IMG/VR virus record: IMGVR_UViG_3300031885_000091
Coordinates: 1 to 27,282 of that record
DNA: 27,282 bases
Reading direction: 5' to 3' (one strand)
Origin: a virus
A program made the translations under genes and the position numbers. The notes beneath the pieces were generated by a model. That model worked only from the letters and a program-made list of their open reading frames with translations, was not told where the DNA came from and did no database searches. This document shows positions 9,272-27,282 of the stretch, one piece after another (the stretch's first letter is position 1; every line of letters starts with the position of its first letter).

Positions 9272-11374
9272 TTATCTCTTAGCCGGAGGTCTTCCGCCTT
9301 TTTCAGCTTTAGGTTTACCAGCAGCCTGTTTCGCCGTCTGTAGTTGTTCCTGGCGAATCTTATTAGCTTCTTGATCTGCCTTAGCTTTCTCGGCTGCATA
9401 TCTTACTAGGGCATCTAAACCTTCTTGTAATTTATCTCGTCTTTCTGTAGCTAGTTCAACCGATCTGGATTTTTCCCATCCAGTGCCTTTAGCCGAATTA
9501 ATTTGTTCATTAATACGAGAAATTTCTTCTTGATAAACATCTTGAAGCATGGATCTTTGAGAAGGAAACATTTGTTTCATCTCAATTTCAGAAAATCCCC
9601 CAGATTGAATCTTATCGGCTAGTTGTTCTTTAGGATTTTTAGTTCCTCCAGATATCCAATCTCCAACATTACCCCAGAAATTGGCTTTACCAGAAGCTAT
9701 ATCTTTCCAACCCTCTACGGTGCTAGCCGCACCCCCTAAGAGAGTTACTAATAACTTTTGAATTTCAATAACTGCCGGAGCTATGTCTTTACCTAACTTT
9801 TCTAAGGAAGCGGCGGTATTCGCTTGAATTTGAGCTAGGTGGCCCTCAGAAGTTTCCATGATCTTAGGAACGTCTTTTTCTCCAAAATCTTTTTCATATT
9901 GTTTTAATAGTTCTTCTCTCTTTTTAGGGTCCAGGGTCTTAGAAATTTGTTTTAGAGTGTTAAAGGCTTCGTAAGCTTCCGTGACATTCTTGGTCCCAGT
10001 TCCGGCCATTAAGAAACGACCCCTAGCTACCCATTGTTCCTCTTTAGCCCGCTCTGCCTCTTCCTTGGTAGCATTCGGTCCTACCGTTAGGGGAAATCTT
10101 TTTAACTGTGTTTCTAACTGTTCTACGATAGCCCCAGCTCGTTTTTTTGAAGCCCCTTCTCCCCCAAAACCGAGAGAGGTAATCATGGATATATCCTGAC
10201 TCGTTAGAAGACCCCTACCCCTAGCAGCCTCTAGTTGCTTTCCAGTTCCTCCACCAAATAAACCAAATTCTAGAGCACTCTGGGCTCCTCCAAAAGTTCC
10301 TCGTCCAATTCCTTTGGCAGCATAGGCTTGCATCAATAAAGCCTGGGGACCTCCTTGGGCATTTTTAATAAAATTATCTAACCCACCAATTAATTTGGTA
10401 GCTTGCTGAGCTGATACTTGATCTCCGGCTCCTGCAATCTTCGCAATAGAATCAAAAGCTTCAGCATTTAATCCTAGTCCGTTATCATTGATTTGGCTAA
10501 GGATATCCTGCATAGCCTCAAAGTATGGTCCTAGAGCATGCTCCAATTTATTAGAAAATATAGTAGCTCTAAACTCTTCGGCAGTTCGATTAGCCTGACC
10601 AAACCCACCCTGGGATTGAACTCCTGCAAATGCTCCTTGAACTTGATTAGCATCAAATCCAGTCATTCGGGCAAACTTCATATTTTTTTGAAATTCTTTA
10701 GATTCTAGTTGGCTAGCCCCAACCCCAAAGATTCCGATACTCTGCTCTTGCGCCGCCCTAATTTCCGAAGGTTTAAAACCGAGTGCGCCATTAAGATAAG
10801 GATTAGTTCCAGATACATCCTTAATCCCTCTCCCCATCAAAGCCAATCTTTGTGGCACGGAAGCCTCGAACTCACTAAAAGCCATTTTTCCAATCTTAAG
10901 AGCTAATCCTGCGGCTAATCCTAAGCCGCCCAAAGCAGTAGCTCCCATTACGCCCATGCCACCCATTTTCTCCATAGCCATAGTTGACACATCTCTTACG
11001 GTCATGGGAGAGGAGACGGCTCCTCCTAATGTTTGTTTAGCTTTCTCAAGTCTAGAGAGTTCATTAGCATACTTGGCTCTTTGAATTTCTATTTTTAAAA
11101 GTTTTTCTTTGGCTTGAAGATTTAACAGATCTGTCTCATTAATTTTCTTTAGACGATTATGGTAGTATTCGGCATACTTACCTAATTTTTTCATTTCTTC
11201 GCCAATGTTTCCGATGGCTTTTGTTGCTTCTCCAGCTAGGAATTTTCTAGTTTCGGGAGTAAATATATTAAAGGATTTACCTCGGCCAAAGGATCTTTCA
11301 ATAACACTAGAAATTTCAAATAAAGACCGCTTGACTTCATTCGCATCTAAGCCTATTTGGATTTTATTAGCCAT
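9272..11374 (-). CDS. Tail tape measure protein
   Basis: 700 aa. It directly follows the two overlapping chaperone frames, as tape measure genes do. Features: an N-terminal helical region with coiled coil (about 55-115), a Gly/Ala/Met-rich hydrophobic stretch (about 135-165; MGGMGVMGATALGGLGLAAG), a long Gly/Gln/Ala-rich helical body, another hydrophobic patch near 530-550 (LLVTLLGGAAS), and a highly charged C-terminus ending PKAEKGGRPPAKR. With the usual ~0.15 nm per residue, 700 residues imply a tail of about 105 nm. No peptidase or muramidase domain is seen. The start ATG overlaps the upstream frame by 8 bp. Confidence 0.85.
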   Translation of the reverse strand: MANKIQIGLDANEVKRSLFEISSVIERSFGRGKSFNIFTPETRKFLAGEATKAIGNIGEEMKKLGKYAEYYHNRLKKINETDLLNLQAKEKLLKIEIQRAKYANELSRLEKAKQTLGGAVSSPMTVRDVSTMAMEKMGGMGVMGATALGGLGLAAGLALKIGKMAFSEFEASVPQRLALMGRGIKDVSGTNPYLNGALGFKPSEIRAAQEQSIGIFGVGASQLESKEFQKNMKFARMTGFDANQVQGAFAGVQSQGGFGQANRTAEEFRATIFSNKLEHALGPYFEAMQDILSQINDNGLGLNAEAFDSIAKIAGAGDQVSAQQATKLIGGLDNFIKNAQGGPQALLMQAYAAKGIGRGTFGGAQSALEFGLFGGGTGKQLEAARGRGLLTSQDISMITSLGFGGEGASKKRAGAIVEQLETQLKRFPLTVGPNATKEEAERAKEEQWVARGRFLMAGTGTKNVTEAYEAFNTLKQISKTLDPKKREELLKQYEKDFGEKDVPKIMETSEGHLAQIQANTAASLEKLGKDIAPAVIEIQKLLVTLLGGAASTVEGWKDIASGKANFWGNVGDWISGGTKNPKEQLADKIQSGGFSEIEMKQMFPSQRSMLQDVYQEEISRINEQINSAKGTGWEKSRSVELATERRDKLQEGLDALVRYAAEKAKADQEANKIRQEQLQTAKQAAGKPKAEKGGRPPAKR

Positions 11375-14972: not shown

Positions 14973-16820
14973 TTATGCCGACTGCGTAATATCTCCCAAG
15001 GTAAATTGGATGAAGATAAAATCTTGTCCTTGGACTGGTTTAATTTCCAACGAAACCAGAGCCGTATTACCTTGAATTTCTACTGTAAACGTCTTTTCAA
15101 CAAAACCATTAGGAGCATCGCTAGAGCTAGTAATAATACTTGCTTTATTAAGCTGGATTAACAATCCCCTAATAAAGGTCTTAATAGCCTGTGCTTGGTT
15201 ATTAGCAACTTTTCTACCAACAAAAGCCAGCTCTGACTGAATCCGCACAAATTTAACCGAATATTGTGCAGCCTCAATAACAGAACCTCTGTTAAAGATA
15301 AAGCTATCATCTTGGCCATAGGTTGTATTATCTACCACTATTCTCCAGCCACCATTAGCTTTTTCAACTGTAATGACGCCCTTTTCAATAGCCGAGACAT
15401 AATCCAAATTAGGATCAAAATCTCCAGCGGGAAGACCTGTTATAGGATTGACACAGCTCCCCACATTAGATGCATTCATGTACTTGTGGGTAAGGGGTTC
15501 GCCAACTTCCGTACCAAGGCGAGTTCCGGCCATTAAAGCGGCCAAAATGTGCGGTTGTTTCCAGGCCAGACTTCCGTCAGTTCCCACTACGAGAACATCT
15601 TGAATGGCCAGTTGAACCAAATAGGAGGCTAACGAATTAGCTTCTGCAAAGGCAGCCGCTTTGGTAGTAGATCGAAATCCACCAAAACCCTGAGCTTCTT
15701 TTCTATTTTGAACATTCCCTCGGAAGATCAAATGTGAATTCATAGCGGCCAAGACAGAGGCAATAGTATAACTAGAGCCTGAATCAGTTTGTCCTAGAAG
15801 AATATCTGCAGTTGCGTCTTGTGAAATACAAGGAAGAGCTACATTATAATCTTCTGACAAAGAGCTACTAAATCCATTAGAAAAGTCGGTATTTGACGAA
15901 GCTCCCTTGGCTCCACCCGACATTCCAAAAGTTCCATTAAGGAGAATTCCAGCATGTAGGGTCGATGAAAGGGCCGCACTAGCTAAATTAGAACCATTAA
16001 TTAATTCCACTAATTCCATTTGCAGCCTGTATAAACTAGGAGTAGCAATCTTAATTTCGGTAGATGCTACGTTATCCAGATCTGCCGCAGGAATTGCCGC
16101 CCCACTAGCAGTATTCAAAAGAACTGCCGTATAGGTTCCAAGGCTATTAATGAAATACACCAACTTAGAAATTGAAGTGTAATTTGATAATATAATATTT
16201 AGATTATCTGCAGGAGCGCCCGTACATGAAGTAGTAAGAGTTTTCACACTCGGCGTATTGCCTGCAATAGTTAGAGTAGCGGCTGAACCAGTTCCAGTAT
16301 AGTGAATACTCAACTGAGCTACTGCCGCATTTTGTCCTAAATTCTCCGAAGCCGTTCCTTGAGCTAACGTAATAATCTTTTGGTTTGCTGAAGATCCCGA
16401 AGCCACATTGACTGTAATCGAATTTCCATTGAAGCCCCAAAGAGGATCTGAAACGGTAAGAATTGATTGTGCGGTACTGTTATTAAGGGTTATCGAAGCT
16501 TGAGTACTAGAATTGGTTTTCCAAACTAGGACTTTATCTGCACCGGCAACTCCGGGAGTTAAGCTTGGGCTAGTAACCGCCATACGAGCCGCGTCTACAA
16601 TAGGACCTGATTGGTACCTAGCCACTAATGCTGGAAGTTGAGAAGCACTAAAAGATTGAATTCCCTCAACATCCCCAGGAGCGCCCGCATCAGCTTCTCC
16701 GAGCAAAAACAACGTGCCATTAGCCGAAAGATTTCTAGCTCCCGCGTTCGAGACGGTGCTAGTTGAATAAGATCCAGGCTTACTGATAGACTGGCCACCA
16801 AAACTTTTTACGATTGCCAT
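14973..16820 (-). CDS. Tail sheath protein
   Basis: 615 aa. Opens with the N-terminal arm AIVKSFGGQSISKPGSYSTS that interlocks neighbouring subunits, followed by LFLLGEADAG and a surface beta domain (about 95-270). The C-terminal core has the sheath hallmark: a VRIQSELAFVGRKVANNQ helix and a C-terminal arm ending in GQDFIFIQFTLGD. Sheath subunits contract to drive the tube through the envelope. Its 146-bp leader contains two hairpins and no obvious sigma-70 promoter; AAGGAG is 7-8 bases before the ATG. Confidence 0.85.
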   Translation of the reverse strand: MAIVKSFGGQSISKPGSYSTSTVSNAGARNLSANGTLFLLGEADAGAPGDVEGIQSFSASQLPALVARYQSGPIVDAARMAVTSPSLTPGVAGADKVLVWKTNSSTQASITLNNSTAQSILTVSDPLWGFNGNSITVNVASGSSANQKIITLAQGTASENLGQNAAVAQLSIHYTGTGSAATLTIAGNTPSVKTLTTSCTGAPADNLNIILSNYTSISKLVYFINSLGTYTAVLLNTASGAAIPAADLDNVASTEIKIATPSLYRLQMELVELINGSNLASAALSSTLHAGILLNGTFGMSGGAKGASSNTDFSNGFSSSLSEDYNVALPCISQDATADILLGQTDSGSSYTIASVLAAMNSHLIFRGNVQNRKEAQGFGGFRSTTKAAAFAEANSLASYLVQLAIQDVLVVGTDGSLAWKQPHILAALMAGTRLGTEVGEPLTHKYMNASNVGSCVNPITGLPAGDFDPNLDYVSAIEKGVITVEKANGGWRIVVDNTTYGQDDSFIFNRGSVIEAAQYSVKFVRIQSELAFVGRKVANNQAQAIKTFIRGLLIQLNKASIITSSSDAPNGFVEKTFTVEIQGNTALVSLEIKPVQGQDFIFIQFTLGDITQSA

Positions 16821-19607: not shown

Positions 19608-20459
19608 TCAATTAAAATCAATGACTCGAATACCAGTTGAACCAAGTTTCACAGCCAACATATCACTTGAAACCCAGAAACTATCTCCTTGTCCAAGCTC
19701 AAATTCTTTGGAATAGCTAGGGCAGGAACTACTTGTATAGATACCTGAGTTACTTCCAGTTGGTTTTGTATAGCGACTTGTACCTGCAATCAACGTGCAT
19801 GAAGATGATGTATAAGCAGTAACGGTTACACTAGCACCAGATCCAGTAGGTCCAGGCAAACCTTGTTCACCTTGTGGTCCAGTAGGTCCGGGTTCACCTT
19901 GTTCTCCTTGTTCACCCTGCATGCCAGGTTCACCTTGAGGTCCAACCTCACCTTGAATTCCTTGAGGTCCAGCTTCGCCGTCTTTGCCATCTAATCCATC
20001 AAGACCATCCTCACCATCTTGACCATCCCGTCCATTGCGCCCATCACGACCATTTTTACCATCACAAGCAATTAAGCTATTCTGATAACGATCACCATGA
20101 GAGAGAAATAGATTATCATCCATGTCAATATAAATATCTAATCTAGTTCCTCCAGTCCAGCACTCAAATAGGGATGCTGATCGAAATCGAGATACTAATG
20201 AGTGGCCGTTAGTTCCGTCCAATCCATCAGCACCATCTTGACCATCAATTCCATTGGTCCCATTCTGGCCATTAATTCCATCCACACCGGATGTCCCGTC
20301 TCTTCCTGCAACAGCGGGAGGAGCCGATACCTCTACTTGATCTACCCCACAACTACAAAAAGCAATGGAGGTCAATAGCAGCAAGGCCGCAACAATGATT
20401 AGGCTTCTAGTACGTTCTGAATTATGTGTTTGTCTTTTTCCTCTAAGAATTTTGGTCAT
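19608..20459 (-). CDS. Collagen-like exported protein with an inserted Cys-paired module
   Basis: 283 aa from the ATG at 20459, which has AAGGAG 5 bases upstream. A hydrophobic segment at ~19-34 is followed by CSCG (C35, C37), so membrane-anchored or lipidated secretion is likely, although the lipobox is not classical. Gly-X-Y repeats run ~52-85 and ~133-207, mainly GXDG types, then GPQG/GEPG. Between them a ~45-residue module (C100 ... C132) has GGTRLDIYIDMDDN and ends ACDG, resembling Cys-bounded modules interspersed in bacterial collagen-like proteins. The C-terminal ~75 residues are Ser/Thr-rich with C221/C246. It leads an operon that also carries tail genes, so it may be a phage surface or host-attachment protein. 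Confidence 0.8.
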   Translation of the reverse strand: MTKILRGKRQTHNSERTRSLIIVAALLLLTSIAFCSCGVDQVEVSAPPAVAGRDGTSGVDGINGQNGTNGIDGQDGADGLDGTNGHSLVSRFRSASLFECWTGGTRLDIYIDMDDNLFLSHGDRYQNSLIACDGKNGRDGRNGRDGQDGEDGLDGLDGKDGEAGPQGIQGEVGPQGEPGMQGEQGEQGEPGPTGPQGEQGLPGPTGSGASVTVTAYTSSSCTLIAGTSRYTKPTGSNSGIYTSSSCPSYSKEFELGQGDSFWVSSDMLAVKLGSTGIRVIDFN

Positions 20460-20476
20460 AAAATCTCCTTTTAACG

Positions 20477-20505
20477 AGAGTAACTTAACTCTTGACAAAT
20501 GTCAA
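20477..20505 (-). promoter_or_regulatory. Promoter TTGACA-17-TACTCT of the structural operon
   Basis: Minus strand: -35 at 20505-20500, 17 bp, -10 TACTCT at 20482-20477. RNA start expected near 20470, placing AAGGAG close to the 5' end of an ~11-base leader before the ATG at 20459. The -35 box is half of the palindrome TTGACAAATGTCAA shared with the divergent promoter. Confidence 0.55.
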
Positions 20506-20893: not shown

Positions 20894-21075
20894 ATTGGGT
20901 TATTGCAGGAGTTTTCGGAACTTTCTTCTTATTTGCTGCTTTAATTATGCCCCTATTTTATCTTGTGGCTTTTTTCTGTGATAATAGGGACCCACTTCAT
21001 GAAGTTTATCAATTGTATAAAGCGGCCATCATATTTTTATTGGCTGTCTTTTTAATCTGGACTGCACTGAGTTAG
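20890..21075 (+). CDS. Small two-helix membrane protein, GTG start
   Basis: 61 aa starting with GTG at 20890; GAGGA lies 5 bases before it. The stop of the previous gene overlaps (GTGA). Hydrophobic segments at ~3-29 and ~44-60 flank a charged loop (DNRDPLHEVYQLYK). Size and topology allow a holin, but there is no endolysin nearby, so the role is open. Confidence 0.55.
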   Translation: MNWVIAGVFGTFFLFAALIMPLFYLVAFFCDNRDPLHEVYQLYKAAIIFLLAVFLIWTALS

Positions 21076-21803: not shown

Positions 21804-22123
21804 AATGCACAATAATTTTGGGCATTCTTTGTTTATTTCTATCTGGATGTGGGGTATCCCAAATGGCTTATAGATTGATCCTGGTAGAAAAACAGCGGCA
21901 TTTTTACGATATCCAAAGTGGAGATCCCTGCGAGCCTTCCGGCTACGAGGTTAACCCCAAGGGCTATGACAAGAAGGATTCTCCGGCAGTAGTGGAATTA
22001 ACCATTACTTATAAGAATTGTAATGTAAAAGAAAAAGTAATTCTAGATGATACTACTAAACCCATGTGGGGAGTTCAAACTCCTCAACCTCAAAAACCAA
22101 AAGGATCGGTAGGCGTGCAATGA
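21800..22123 (+). CDS. Small lipoprotein
   Basis: 107 aa. A type II signal peptide MKCTIILGILCLFLSGC: the lipobox LSGC is classical, giving a ~90-residue lipidated protein. The mature part has CEPSGYEVNPKGY, a strand VVELTITYKNCNVKEKVIL and a Pro/Gln-rich tail (QTPQPQKPKG). Lipidated phage proteins include o-spanins and exclusion factors. Its length and Cys pair are compatible with either; no i-spanin partner overlaps it. It overlaps the deformylase by ATGA. Confidence 0.7.
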   Translation: MKCTIILGILCLFLSGCGVSQMAYRLILVEKQRHFYDIQSGDPCEPSGYEVNPKGYDKKDSPAVVELTITYKNCNVKEKVILDDTTKPMWGVQTPQPQKPKGSVGVQ

Positions 22124-22725
22124 TTCGACCTATTCTTATTTATCCGAGGCTTCCTCTTAAAACAGCCTGCATATATCCGCAAGGGGATGAGGTTACCTTA
22201 AAATATATTGCTGACAATAAAGCCCTCTTTTTGGGATTAATTAAGGATTTAACCGATACCTTAGCAGAGATTCCTCAAGGGGTGGGCCTAGCATCCAATC
22301 AGATTGGACACCCAGACGAAGCCATAGCAGTTATGGACCCCGCTAAGAGTGAGAGTTTTCAAGGAAAGAGATCGGCTTTCCATGCTCTTTATCCCACTCT
22401 TTTAGAAGGCTCCTACATTATTAAAGTTCGAGAAGGATGTTTAAGTTTTCCACAATACTTTGAATCAGTAGAGAGATTTGGTAAGGTTACTGTGAAATAC
22501 TTTACCCTAGAAGGTTCTGCGCCTATCATTGAGGAAGCTACTGATTTCATGGCACAAATTTGGCAACACGAAATAGATCATTTAAGTGGGCAATTATTCA
22601 TAGATAAGCTCAGCCCCATGAAGAGAGATATGGCTGTCAAAAAAATGACAAAGACTCGACGCCGAATTGATGACTTTCAATGGATTCCCAAAAAGCATGC
22701 TTTCTTTGGATCTAAGTCCGAGTAG
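22120..22725 (+). CDS. def: Peptide deformylase
   Basis: 201 aa from ATG 22120, chosen over an in-frame upstream ATG (22066) since it overlaps the preceding stop as ATGA like its neighbours. Motif 1 GVGLASNQ (54-61), motif 2 EGCLS (105-109, Cys107 ligand), motif 3 QHEIDH (149-154, His150 and His154 ligands, Glu151 catalytic): all required residues of peptide deformylase are present. It removes the formyl group from nascent N-termini. Phage-encoded copies are known; they may support rapid translation of phage proteins. A basic C-terminal extension (KKMTKTRRRIDDFQW, then about 20 more residues) exceeds many bacterial forms. It is followed by a promoter. Confidence 0.93.
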   Translation: MIRPILIYPRLPLKTACIYPQGDEVTLKYIADNKALFLGLIKDLTDTLAEIPQGVGLASNQIGHPDEAIAVMDPAKSESFQGKRSAFHALYPTLLEGSYIIKVREGCLSFPQYFESVERFGKVTVKYFTLEGSAPIIEEATDFMAQIWQHEIDHLSGQLFIDKLSPMKRDMAVKKMTKTRRRIDDFQWIPKKHAFFGSKSE

Positions 22726-24689: not shown

Positions 24690-25223
24690 TTACCCAAACA
24701 TCTTCTTAACTAACTTATGGCTAGTTCTCCAGTTAGGGGCTTCCCGCTTAGTCCAGGTAGTCTTACTTTCAAAAAGATCCCAGGTTGTATTTAAAAAATC
24801 CCTAAAACCCACCACTGGATCAGTAACCTCCCACTCACCAAAAGGGTTATGGAAGAACAGGTGTGGGCTTTGATAACTCGAATCTACAAACATACGATTA
24901 AAGGACCAGATCTTTATCAACCCTTCTGCAAAATCTGCCAAGAATTTTTCCTTGGGATGGCTTTTCCCGAAGCGATATCTATACTCGTTGCAGAGCCCTT
25001 TAAAGTGGTCTAGAAGCCATTTATAATGTTCTGGATGACCCCTAACCCAAAACGAACACGGATGGTCATAATTCCTTTTTTTAAGGGGTGCTAAATTAGC
25101 GCAAATGGGGTGTAGGGCGTTTGAAAGTAGCTGGGCGATACTAGGGATGGATTTTTTCAGTAGCGCGTCATCTAGGGCCATTGCCGACGCCGTAGGATGA
25201 ATACTAGTGACATAAATGTTCAT
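24690..25223 (-). CDS. Conserved phage protein of unknown function
   Basis: 177 aa. The pattern MNIYVTSIHPTASAMALDDALLKKSIPSIAQLLSNALH, HPCSFWVRGHPEHYKWLLDHF and LCNEYRYRFGKSHPKEK fits a family repeatedly seen in phages (start MxIxVTxxDPxxxAxxLDDxxLxKxxxExxQLLxxA; HPcxxWxRxxxxNYxWLxxxFxxLxxEYxxRyGK). Its function is unknown to me; the absence of a signal peptide suggests a cytoplasmic role. ATG overlaps the preceding stop as ATGA. Three TTTGGGT repeats follow the stop in the minus direction. Confidence 0.7.
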   Translation of the reverse strand: MNIYVTSIHPTASAMALDDALLKKSIPSIAQLLSNALHPICANLAPLKKRNYDHPCSFWVRGHPEHYKWLLDHFKGLCNEYRYRFGKSHPKEKFLADFAEGLIKIWSFNRMFVDSSYQSPHLFFHNPFGEWEVTDPVVGFRDFLNTTWDLFESKTTWTKREAPNWRTSHKLVKKMFG

Positions 25224-25405
25224 TTGAGTAAACCCCTCTTGGTTAAGAGTATTTCCAATTCCAGCCGGGCCAAAAGTCTGGCCGTAGAATCTCCTTGGAA
25301 TAGGGCTAGCGCCTTTTGCTCTAATTCTTCACAGTAATCCAGGATTTCAAAAAGAGGATCTATATCAAAGGTTTTCATCTTGGGGGTATCCTTAGCTTTT
25401 TTCAT
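25220..25405 (-). CDS. Small helical acidic protein
   Basis: 61 aa. MKKAKDTPKM, then an acidic amphipathic helix (DIDPLFEILDYCEELEQKALALFQG) and a second helix (ARLLARLELEILLTKRG). It is coupled at both ends: TAATG with the upstream gene, ATGA with the downstream gene. Helical peptides of this kind in phages can be inhibitors of host enzymes, but nothing in the sequence shows this. No family recognised. Confidence 0.5.
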   Translation of the reverse strand: MKKAKDTPKMKTFDIDPLFEILDYCEELEQKALALFQGDSTARLLARLELEILLTKRGLLK

Positions 25406-25662
25406 TAGTACACATCTCCATTTTCATCTCTTTTTTTGTTCTCGTAAGGACCCACCACTCGGCGTTGGAACTCAGCCTTAGCACCCTCTAGGGCACCTAT
25501 AATGTCATTGATCGTCTGGTAGCACAGTCCCTTTTTATTCATGTACTGGAGGGCCAGTAGGGTAAAAAGATAGTTAAGTTCTCCAGCCGTCTGAGGACAA
25601 TCCTCATGCAAGAAGTAAGATAAGCCTAATCTGGTTCGATCTTCATCCTTGATGTAGGGCAT
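25405..25662 (-). CDS. DUF6899-like phage protein
   Basis: 85 aa from ATG 25662, preceded by GAAGGAGG; the longer frame to 25710 is rejected because that start lies in the promoter. MPYIKDEDR, then GELNYLFTLLALQYMNKKG, YQTINDIIGALEGAKAEFQRRVV and a final YENKKRDENGDVY match a family (DUF6899) common in phages, with MPYI...R, NDIIGALE.AK.EF.RRV..PYE and GDVY as hallmarks. Mechanism unknown. First gene of a three-gene minus unit driven by the promoter at 25682-25710. Confidence 0.85.
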   Translation of the reverse strand: MPYIKDEDRTRLGLSYFLHEDCPQTAGELNYLFTLLALQYMNKKGLCYQTINDIIGALEGAKAEFQRRVVGPYENKKRDENGDVY

Positions 25663-25681: not shown

Positions 25682-25710
25682 AGATTACTATGGGACCCAA
25701 AAAATGTCAA
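25682..25710 (-). promoter_or_regulatory. Promoter TTGACA-17-TAATCT with GGGWCCC operator in its spacer
   Basis: Minus strand: -35 TTGACA at 25710-25705, 17 bp, -10 TAATCT at 25687-25682. The GGGWCCC palindrome at 25692-25698 lies entirely between -35 and -10, and a second at 25714-25720 lies just upstream of the -35. A protein on these sites would block RNA polymerase, so repression is the simplest reading. Confidence 0.65.
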
Positions 25711-25720
25711 GATGGGACCC
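25692..25720. promoter_or_regulatory. Pair of GGGWCCC palindromes overlapping the DUF6899 promoter
   Basis: GGGACCC at 25692-25698 and at 25714-25720, 22 bp apart start to start (about two helical turns), in flanks ATGGGACCCA and GATGGGACCCTAG. The second flank recurs exactly at 26237-26249. Probable operators of a phage regulator. Confidence 0.55.
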
Positions 25721-25729
25721 TAGTCTATT

Positions 25730-26137
25730 TTAAGATCGGGTAGAACACCAATGAGCGTGGGTGGTTTTACACTTCTCTGCTCCGCAGTCACACCGAGACA
25801 AAGGTCTAATGACTGCTCCTCCCCAATCTGATCCCCAGGAAGAAGTATCTATTTTCCCTGAAGTAAAAGTAAATTGCTGAGGAGTAGCATTAACAGGACC
25901 CGCGATAACCTGACCGAGTTGTCCATTGTGAGCAGAAGAATTAAGACTATAAAGTGGTTTGAATCCAGATTTAATAAGAGCCTGCTCTACCTTGTTAAAA
26001 ACTTCATCTGGCCGGACATACAGGTCTGCATCACTAATACAGACTTGGGGATGTATGGGATGCCACCAAATCAAAAGATTATTACTATGAGTAAATCCAT
26101 TGAGCTTAATAAAGTCAGTAACTTCATTCGTGGTCAT
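25730..26137 (-). CDS. Unknown protein with C-terminal Cys/His knuckle
   Basis: 135 aa. An N-terminal helix-strand region (TNEVTDFIKLNGFT, NNLLIWWHPIHPQVCISDADLYV) and an acidic middle end in a C-terminal cluster CDCGAEKCKTTHAHWC with four Cys and two His, similar to the CxCGxxK...HxxWC tail of several phage proteins, probably binding zinc. ATG at 26137; the -10 (TAGCTT) ends 10 bases upstream, so the RNA leader is only a few bases. GGGWCCC sites flank it on both sides. Convergent with nothing; downstream of it lies the next minus unit. Confidence 0.6.
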   Translation of the reverse strand: MTTNEVTDFIKLNGFTHSNNLLIWWHPIHPQVCISDADLYVRPDEVFNKVEQALIKSGFKPLYSLNSSAHNGQLGQVIAGPVNATPQQFTFTSGKIDTSSWGSDWGGAVIRPLSRCDCGAEKCKTTHAHWCSTRS

Positions 26138-26147
26138 ATTACCCTAC

Positions 26148-26176
26148 AAGCTACCACAATTAAAAGGGGAGGTCAA
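26148..26176 (-). promoter_or_regulatory. Promoter TTGACC-17-TAGCTT
   Basis: Minus strand: -35 at 26176-26171, 17 bp, -10 TAGCTT at 26153-26148, then 10 bases to the ATG at 26137. RNA start near 26141 leaves a leader of about 4 bases, too short for a Shine-Dalgarno. Three GGGWCCC sites lie 18-70 bp upstream of the -35. Confidence 0.45.
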
Positions 26177-26193
26177 GAGGAGCCCGGCGACGA

Positions 26194-26246
26194 GGGTCCC
26201 TAGAGGTCTTTGGATGGGACCCACAGGGCTGCCGTAGATGGGACCC
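26194..26246. promoter_or_regulatory. Three GGGWCCC palindromes upstream of the 26137 gene
   Basis: GGGTCCC at 26194-26200, GGGACCC at 26216-26222 and 26240-26246, spaced 22 and 24 bp start to start. A further GGGGTCCCC lies at 26349-26357. They are upstream of the -35 of the 26148 promoter, so here they could activate rather than repress, or nucleate binding from neighbouring sites. Confidence 0.5.
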
Positions 26247-26376
26247 TAGAGATATACTCCTGTAGTAAATCAGTATAGAATAGATGGTACCTAAAATTCT
26301 GGGAGTGCGTGCGGGTATATGTCCCTCCGCACTGAGAGAAGAAAATATGGGGTCCCCACGTCAAAATGTTGACACG

Positions 26377-26393
26377 TGCAAGAATCATGCCAG
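26377..26393 (-). promoter_or_regulatory. Sigma-54-like promoter sequence, minus strand (one mismatch)
   Basis: Minus strand CTGGCATGATTCTTGCA matches the sigma-54 (RpoN) consensus YTGGCACGRNNNTTGCW with one mismatch (T for C at position 7). It repeats the 26476-26492 site 99 bp away. RNA start would be near 26366, toward the 26137 gene. Confidence 0.45.
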
Positions 26394-26418
26394 CCCCCGC
26401 CCGTCAGTTTATTGACAC

Positions 26419-26465
26419 TATGCATCTATTGCGTAGGGAGTATTGACATATGCATGTAATGCATA
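26419..26465. repeat. Two TATGCAT-type palindromes behind TTGACA
   Basis: TATGCAT-GTA-ATGCATA at 26449-26465 is a perfect inverted repeat; TATGCAT-CTA-TTGCGTA at 26419-26435 is a diverged copy with two mismatches in the right arm. They are 30 bp apart, and each is preceded by TTGACA. TGCATA half-sites recur at 26699-26704 and 26719-26724. Likely operators or activator sites. Confidence 0.55.
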
Positions 26466-26475
26466 GCTCCCCCCC

Positions 26476-26492
26476 TGCAAGATTCGTGCCAA
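26476..26492 (-). promoter_or_regulatory. Sigma-54-like promoter sequence, minus strand (exact consensus)
   Basis: Minus strand TTGGCACGAATCTTGCA matches YTGGCACGRNNNTTGCW at every position, with GG at -24 and GC at -12. By simple counting, an exact match is expected about 0.002 times by chance in a window of this size. RNA start would be near 26465, at the TATGCAT palindromes. Confidence 0.55.
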
Positions 26493-26569
26493 GTCAATCG
26501 TCAGGGCATTGACGGGCGTTAACTATGGTTGCAAGCGAGCCTTAAGCCCTAGCGCAATAATGGTCCCTA

Positions 26570-26605
26570 TGATATCAACCACTTAGCCTTAACCTCTTGA
26601 TATCA
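26570..26605. repeat. Pair of TGATATCA palindromes
   Basis: TGATATCA at 26570-26577 and 26598-26605, 28 bp apart start to start, both perfect 8-bp palindromes. Similar spacing to the TATGCAT pair suggests paired sites for a second dimeric protein. Confidence 0.4.
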
Positions 26606-26705
26606 CTAGGGCATATATGGTCGCATAGTGCCGCAATACGTCGCAATCCGTTATAATGCGGGGAGCACGAAGTCAATGGTTACGCCTAGTTATCGTGCTG
26701 CATAG

Positions 26706-26722
26706 TTGGCATGCGGCTTGCA
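26706..26722 (+). promoter_or_regulatory. Sigma-54-like promoter sequence, plus strand
   Basis: TTGGCATGCGGCTTGCA keeps the sigma-54 core TGGCA-N6-TTGCA; it differs from YTGGCACGRNNNTTGCW at two positions. RNA start near 26733 would give a 47-base leader containing the GAAGGGAGTCAA ribosome site before the ATG at 26780. Confidence 0.4.
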
Positions 26723-26763
26723 TAACATAGTAGCGTGAATGCAACACGAAAATACGACCACAC

Positions 26764-26775
26764 GAAGGGAGTCAA
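26764..26775 (+). repeat. GAAGGGAGTCAA leader repeat, copy 1
   Basis: The 12-mer GAAGGGAGTCAA is found at 26764-26775, 27017-27028 and 27233-27244. It precedes the start codons at 26780, 27033 and 27249 by 4 bases each. GGGAG is the ribosome binding site; TCAA beyond it is also conserved, so more than translation may be selected. Confidence 0.7.
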
Positions 26776-26779
26776 GACT

Positions 26780-27001
26780 ATGAGTGAAGCACGAAACCTG
26801 AATCAATTAACTGAAAATACAACGAAATCAACCATATACACCGTATTCTATGCATCGAAAATCGGCAAGAGCATGCACGTTGACTCGACGCCGGTATACC
26901 TCGACCAAGCACACCTTGACCACGCAGTAGCGCACCAGAATGCGGTTAAGCTGCAATGGTCTTGCAAGAATCCCCGCATTGTGGTCTTGCTACTTAACTA
27001 G
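26780..27001 (+). CDS. Small unknown protein behind the conserved leader
   Basis: 73 aa; ATG 26780 is supported by GGGAG in the GAAGGGAGTCAA leader and is preferred over the upstream ATG at 26735. Composition: Ser/Thr-rich start, then IYTVFYASKIGKSMHVDSTP and YLDQAHLDHAVAHQNAVKLQW with three His, ending in a hydrophobic IVVLLLN. Codons (ACG, TCG, CTC, CGC) differ from those of the genes to the left. No family recognised; probably an early phage peptide. Confidence 0.6.
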   Translation: MSEARNLNQLTENTTKSTIYTVFYASKIGKSMHVDSTPVYLDQAHLDHAVAHQNAVKLQWSCKNPRIVVLLLN

Positions 27002-27016: not shown

Positions 27017-27028
27017 GAAGGGAGTCAA
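27017..27028 (+). repeat. GAAGGGAGTCAA leader repeat, copy 2
   Basis: Identical to 26764-26775, 4 bases before the ATG at 27033. It lies in the 31-bp gap between two small genes, whose other bases are G+C-rich (GGGCGCAGCGAGCGC). Confidence 0.7.
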
Positions 27029-27032
27029 GGCA

Positions 27033-27227
27033 ATGAATAACCTGAGCATAGCGAAATCACTAGGGGAGCAAGGGAGCGGGCAAGCGTGCTGCTACTCGAA
27101 ACGCTCCCCGCAAGGCATCGTCAGGGCGCTAGGCATGCTCACGACGCTAGGCCTTGACCATGTTTCACTAGGCTTGCTTGCGTCAATCGCTTGCGTGGCC
27201 TTAACGCGTATTTTGGGAGTTAACTAG
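27033..27227 (+). CDS. Small unknown protein with hydrophobic C-terminal segment
   Basis: 64 aa, ATG 27033 behind GGGAG. The N-terminus is polar (NNLSIAKSLGEQGSGQACCYSKRSPQ) with a CC pair; the C-terminal half (IVRALGMLTTLGLDHVSLGLLASIACVALTRIL) is hydrophobic with one to two membrane-type helices. High-GC codons again differ from the left part of the window. No family recognised. Confidence 0.55.
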   Translation: MNNLSIAKSLGEQGSGQACCYSKRSPQGIVRALGMLTTLGLDHVSLGLLASIACVALTRILGVN

Positions 27228-27232
27228 TCAAT

Positions 27233-27244
27233 GAAGGGAGTCAA
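27233..27244 (+). repeat. GAAGGGAGTCAA leader repeat, copy 3
   Basis: Identical to copies 1 and 2 and 4 bases before the ATG at 27249. An imperfect version (GGGAGTTAACTAGTCAATGA) lies just upstream at 27215-27234, covering the end of the previous gene. Confidence 0.65.
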
Positions 27245-27248
27245 TCGA

Positions 27249-27282
27249 ATGAATAAACTGAACAAAATCAATAATATAGCCA
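27249..27282 (+). CDS. Start of a further small gene, truncated by the window edge
   Basis: Only MNKLNKINNIA is visible after GAAGGGAGTCAA and 4 bases. Its start is supported by the leader repeat alone. Product unknown. Confidence 0.5.
   Translation, partial: MNKLNKINNIA

Follow-up and report, generated by a model that had tools for sequence, protein, structure and literature searches.

The pac site of phage P1 consists of hexamer arrays. Mycobacteriophage repressors provide a precedent for operators that are oriented, asymmetric and present in multiple copies (PMC9283540). The stoperators of cluster A mycobacteriophages such as L5 and TipsytheTRex are 13-mers that are spread genome-wide, with an orientation that follows transcription, and some of them overlap promoters (PMC9283540).

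The locus studied here is located in a viral DNA of 27,282 nucleotides (the whole stretch is referred to as the window) and contains a cluster of the 7-bp word GGGWCCC, here termed box. Like the stoperators, the boxes are short sites in multiple copies, some of which overlap promoters. However, the stoperators are distributed across the whole genome, whereas copies of the 7-mer are gathered in a single local array that is often located at the terminase module. In the 27-kb fragment, six of the seven sites lie within 665 bp, and other contigs mostly contain one array each; the likeness to dispersed stoperators drawn in the initial annotation was thus not borne out. The strand asymmetry was 148:2 in a set of loci anchored on the terminase, as compared to 4:2 in the window. 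By analogy, the array may work like a clustered, oriented operator array, nearest in idea to the mycobacteriophage stoperators.

Packaging sites (pac), such as those of P1 and those of SPP1/SF6 (for the latter, PMC4737164), resemble the arrays in that they are clustered repeats beside terminase genes with a plausible directionality. The boxes differ from pac sites in that they do not follow the sequence of the small terminase gene (terS), overlap promoters and are sometimes far from the large terminase gene (terL). Many arrays elsewhere are adjacent to terminase genes, whereas no terminase gene was found in the window. In sister contigs, small arrays of parS centromere sites (TGTTTCACGTGAAACA) are located in the same terS-terL gap, but parS is a distinct, truly palindromic word of 16 bp that is absent from the window. 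An exact-word search of an incomplete literature collection, which can miss reports, retrieved no paper that mentions GGGACCC together with terminase, or GGGWCCC together with phage.

The window phage

The window is a linear IMG/VR fragment from the incomplete genome of a contractile-tailed phage. In addition to the tail sheath, its products include baseplate proteins, an endonuclease VII-like protein and a peptide deformylase.

14973 to 16820: tail sheath
19608 to 20498: collagen-repeat protein of the tail-fibre type
22066 to 22725: phage-encoded peptide deformylase (PF01327, E 5.5e-29)

The sheath and baseplate proteins are distantly similar to those of SPO1-like phages, and the best E-value for the sheath was obtained with Myxococcus phage Mx1, at 29% identity. 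The Mx1 genome contains six scattered GGGWCCC copies, as compared to approximately 35 expected, and no cluster. Searches with the baseplate, sheath and phrog_624 proteins and at the DNA level identified no close relatives of the window phage, and Rfam and tRNA searches of the window were empty.

Six boxes cluster within 665 bp

A recount of the window confirmed that six copies start exactly where the initial annotation had placed them, with a single further copy at position 20987 and spacings of 22, 22 and 24 bp within the groups.

25692 to 25698, minus strand: GGGTCCC box in the -35/-10 spacer of the predicted DUF6899 promoter
25714 to 25720, minus strand: GGGTCCC box 3 nt upstream of the -35, 22 bp from the box at 25692
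26194 to 26200, plus strand: GGGTCCC box, orientation opposite to that of the neighbouring boxes
26216 to 26222, minus strand: GGGTCCC box, 22 bp past the box at 26194
26240 to 26246, minus strand: GGGTCCC box, 24 bp past the box at 26216, with TATACT on the plus strand at 26253 to 26258
26350 to 26356, plus strand: GGGTCCC box, followed by TTGACA on the plus strand at 26369

The clustering of the six boxes is non-random, and an even spread of the word was not seen in the 27-kb fragment. The total of seven copies compares with 2.3 ± 1.5 expected, and at least seven were obtained in one of 100 shuffles. Six GGGWCCC copies within 665 bp were observed in none of 3,000 Markov simulations (order 1 to 3). 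However, when any 7-bp palindrome family was permitted, a cluster of at least six copies appeared in about 14–17% of the simulations, probably mainly in families with AT-rich arms, and the local cluster statistic is therefore weaker than it appears. Four of the boxes have the context ATGGGACCC in common (minus-strand form GGGTCCCAT), with no longer duplication around them. Unlike most arrays described below, the one in the window is of mixed orientation (4:2).

One box lies in the spacer of a predicted promoter

The box groups are located among the following features.

25682 to 25710, minus strand: predicted sigma70-like promoter, TTGACA-17-TAATCT, with a perfect -35 and a weak -10, read directly from the sequence
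25405 to 25662, minus strand: DUF6899 gene (PF21840), 85 aa, ATG with a GGAGG Shine-Dalgarno sequence
25220 to 25405, minus strand: 61-aa gene, next after DUF6899 in the probable leftward operon
24690 to 25223, minus strand: gene of the phrog_624 'DNA binding protein' family with a weak Pyr_excise match, overlapping the 61-aa gene
25730 to 26137, minus strand: 135-aa gene without family match, separating the two box groups
26138 to 26779: noncoding region of 642 bp between divergent gene sets, containing four boxes

The DUF6899 gene, which probably heads a leftward operon, starts at the ATG at 25662 with its Shine-Dalgarno sequence rather than at a TTG at 25710, and the box pair at 25692 and 25714 is therefore outside the gene. 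On the minus strand, the TTGACA (25710 to 25705) is separated by a 17-bp spacer from the TAATCT (25687 to 25682), and the order upstream of DUF6899 is GGGTCCC-atc-TTGACA-tttttt-GGGTCCC-atag-TAATCT. This agrees with the initial annotation, which had described one box inside the spacer and another beside the -35 of this promoter. The promoter is absent from the list of the consensus scanner because its -10 scores only three of six matches. The second promoter proposed beyond the box triplet is weak, with a TATACT at 26253 on the plus strand and no recognisable -35.

The noncoding region also contains a second repeated element, in which three TTGACA words between 26369 and 26470 are each followed after 1–3 nt by a TGCA-containing stretch (TTGACAcgTGCAaGAATCATGCC, TTGACActaTGCATCTATTGCG and TTGACAtaTGCATGTAATGCATAGC). 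Further to the right, a leader, GAAGGGAGTCAA, directly precedes the ATG of three successive small plus-strand genes, and the G+C content of this stretch exceeds that of the rest of the window. The leader copies (repeat family D1) were identified in a repeat search of the window.

26764 to 26782, plus strand: leader copy
27017 to 27035, plus strand: leader copy
27233 to 27252, plus strand: leader copy

Box arrays in other phage contigs

GGGWCCC arrays outside coding sequence are found repeatedly in contigs of unrelated environmental phages. IMG/VR was scanned for patterns of box pairs and triples. The matches listed included in-frame repeats, for example in collagen-like genes, and many contigs in which four to nine boxes form a noncoding array with irregular spacing. 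terL was detected in the fetched piece for 26 of the 47 noncoding arrays with at least three boxes and was located within 2.5 kb of 25 of them, again among the matches listed. For the control word CCCWGGG, which has the same composition, one of 11 noncoding arrays had terL in the piece and none had it within 2.5 kb. A single orientation throughout was observed in 21 of the 27 noncoding arrays with at least four boxes (1.7 expected; among the matches listed), and no helical phasing of the box spacing was found in the arrays.

Since these contigs had been drawn by the motif, a second sample of 84 contigs or loci was fetched by terL homology alone. GGGTCCC was present in 148 copies upstream of terL in the 84 loci, as compared to 13 expected, which is the highest z-score of all 7-mers, and only two copies of GGGACCC were found on this side. 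Single-mismatch variants of GGGTCCC reached at most 29 copies each on either strand. In the 71 contigs that were new to the motif scan, there were 69 GGGTCCC copies (10 expected) and two on the other strand. Arrays were present in 13 of the 49 loci that had sufficient upstream sequence and came from contigs not drawn earlier by the motif. The strand ratio of 148:2 suggests that the word is read with polarity in the terminase-anchored group, and not as a symmetric palindrome; such a bias in a near-palindrome excludes simple symmetric dimer binding in this best-sampled group.

In the largest group, the arrays occupy the terS-terL gap, and in the group of L138, L200 and L177 the array heads a structural operon, approximately 10 kb from terL. 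No noncoding GGGWCCC array was found in 369 bacterial genomes from the class of one array-bearing MAG contig, and the arrays therefore look like a phage feature. The three hits in these genomes were regular tandem repeats, and the idea of a bacterial host using box arrays was rejected. Cultured phages with related terL contained no boxes except for one isolated copy. PF03237 gave no match above its cut-off in the array contigs, and no gene family in the flanks co-occurred convincingly with the boxes (best p of approximately 0.05 before correction).

Near-tandem repeats of approximately 24 bp, each with a GGGACCC, were observed downstream of terL in three contigs.

L084 (279-kb contig), 11154 to 11366: near-tandem GGGACCC repeats
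L220, 766 to 867: near-tandem GGGACCC repeats
L034, 844 to 970: near-tandem GGGACCC repeats

Several box arrays are located near contig ends, which could be physical genome termini or assembly breaks.

G027, 82 to 239 of 67,057: array
G007, 129 to 456 of 22,253: array
G011, 277.1 kb of 278.9 kb: array
G031, 36.07 kb of 36.6 kb: array
Window, 0.9 kb from the end: array

Some terS-terL gaps contain arrays of a parS-like word, with two to five copies of TTTCACGTGAAA and one-base variants, alone or together with GGGTCCC boxes (L363, L366, L367, L375, L378, L382, L384, L385, L387, L391 and L421).

A proposed operator array and alternative explanations

We propose that the six boxes together form a clustered array of operators for a putative sequence-specific DNA-binding protein, a reading to which we give about an even chance. 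Such a protein would bind each GGGTCCC box. At the DUF6899 promoter, RNA polymerase would be blocked at the spacer box, with reinforcement from the box next to the -35; the triplet and the single box would control the divergent region at 26.1–26.8 kb. Binding to the boxes, repression by this binding and related readers for the window and the terminase-linked arrays are all inferred from sequence. The observed overlap is that of a box with the predicted promoter, TTGACA-17-TAATCT with its weak -10. A TTGACA was also located 0–1 bp before a box in six other arrays (L067, L148, L120, L236, L408 and L418), where the box is followed by an element similar to a -10; five of the six had a further box at about the -10 or the start site. 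The excess is modest (six as compared to approximately 1.2 expected, from 0.6 per gap elsewhere), and L067 and L148 are relatives. This placement parallels that at the window promoter and thus favours transcriptional control; an operator-like role is supported because a box sits in the promoter spacer here and likewise in other phage contigs. With as many as ten boxes across several hundred bp, some arrays exceed the usual length of a simple promoter operator. A role of the boxes in RNA hairpins was dismissed by reasoning, based on the W-W mismatch between copies of the same orientation and on one window box being upstream of the promoter. The operator set for a phage regulator postulated in the initial annotation is partly supported by the promoter overlap here and in the six arrays, although no DNA-binding regulator or repressor for the boxes was found in the 27-kb window, which is a fragment of an incomplete genome.

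The initial annotation had omitted the main rival, which is raised by the clustering of arrays beside terminase and late genes: the array could be a pac-like site at which a small terminase initiates packaging, with the box orientation setting the direction and the window containing a packaging site or genome end. The proximity of terL to 25 of the 47 arrays (among the matches listed), as compared to none of the 11 CCCWGGG controls, the filling of the terS-terL gap in the largest group and the location of several arrays, including that of the window, near contig ends are consistent with this explanation, and the single orientation suits a directional function. Small terminases present HTH motifs in a ring, but the HTHs of SF6 bind with little sequence specificity (PMC4737164). 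The boxes do not co-vary with the small terminase: L365 and L387 have terS genes with 87% identity but four boxes and none, respectively, in their terS-terL gaps, and box presence is scattered over the terS tree. The small terminase was therefore not supported as the box reader. The array that heads a structural operon 10 kb from terL, the near absence of boxes from cultured phages with related terL and the lack of a terminase in the window also argue against a packaging site, and we regard it as unlikely. The boxes could instead be bound by a protein of replication or segregation, or by a nucleoid protein, encoded by either host or phage, so that the array is a centromere, an origin or a decoy. 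The parS-like arrays in sister contigs, some of them alongside boxes, point in this direction, as do the parS-like 7-mers, which rank next in enrichment among the signals specific to the terL-upstream side, and a turnover of boxes that is faster than that of terS. However, the parS-like word is absent from the window, the lack of box arrays in the 369 genomes of the searched class speaks against a site for arrays on the host chromosome, and promoter overlap is not predicted by such a role, which we consider improbable.

The window cluster might also have arisen by coincidence, or by local duplication of a word without importance, and have no connection with the other arrays. Only a 7-bp word is shared with the array-bearing contigs, to which the window has no homology, roughly one in six simulated genomes has some palindrome family clustered to a similar degree, and the distant cultured relative Mx1 has no cluster. 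This explanation seems improbable to us in view of the simulations for GGGWCCC itself (0 of 3,000), the regular 22/22/24 spacing, the ATGGGACCC context of four boxes without a longer duplication and the placement of boxes on a predicted promoter. With respect to the operator array, no protein families were detected in common between the window phage and the array-bearing terminase contigs in comparisons that included 31 query proteins, of which one (26776 to 27001) was translated out of frame, with no effect on the other 30; we hypothesize that the window array is tied to the terminase-linked arrays by the 7-mer, the clustering and the promoter placement, not by homology.

Implications

On a broader scale, GGGTCCC arrays may represent a widespread, undescribed and strand-oriented control element of environmental tailed phages at the head of the terminase or late module. 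Unrelated phages would have a reader family in common or would have arrived at it by convergence, and in the window the same element would be used at a promoter that serves small non-structural genes. We consider this generalization possible but doubtful. If it is true, a locus for regulation or packaging would be marked in many uncultured phages by one exact 7-mer, and GGGTCCC would be a defined bait for the reader protein. Late-gene control or packaging would also become accessible through sequence in phages that have no cultured relatives.
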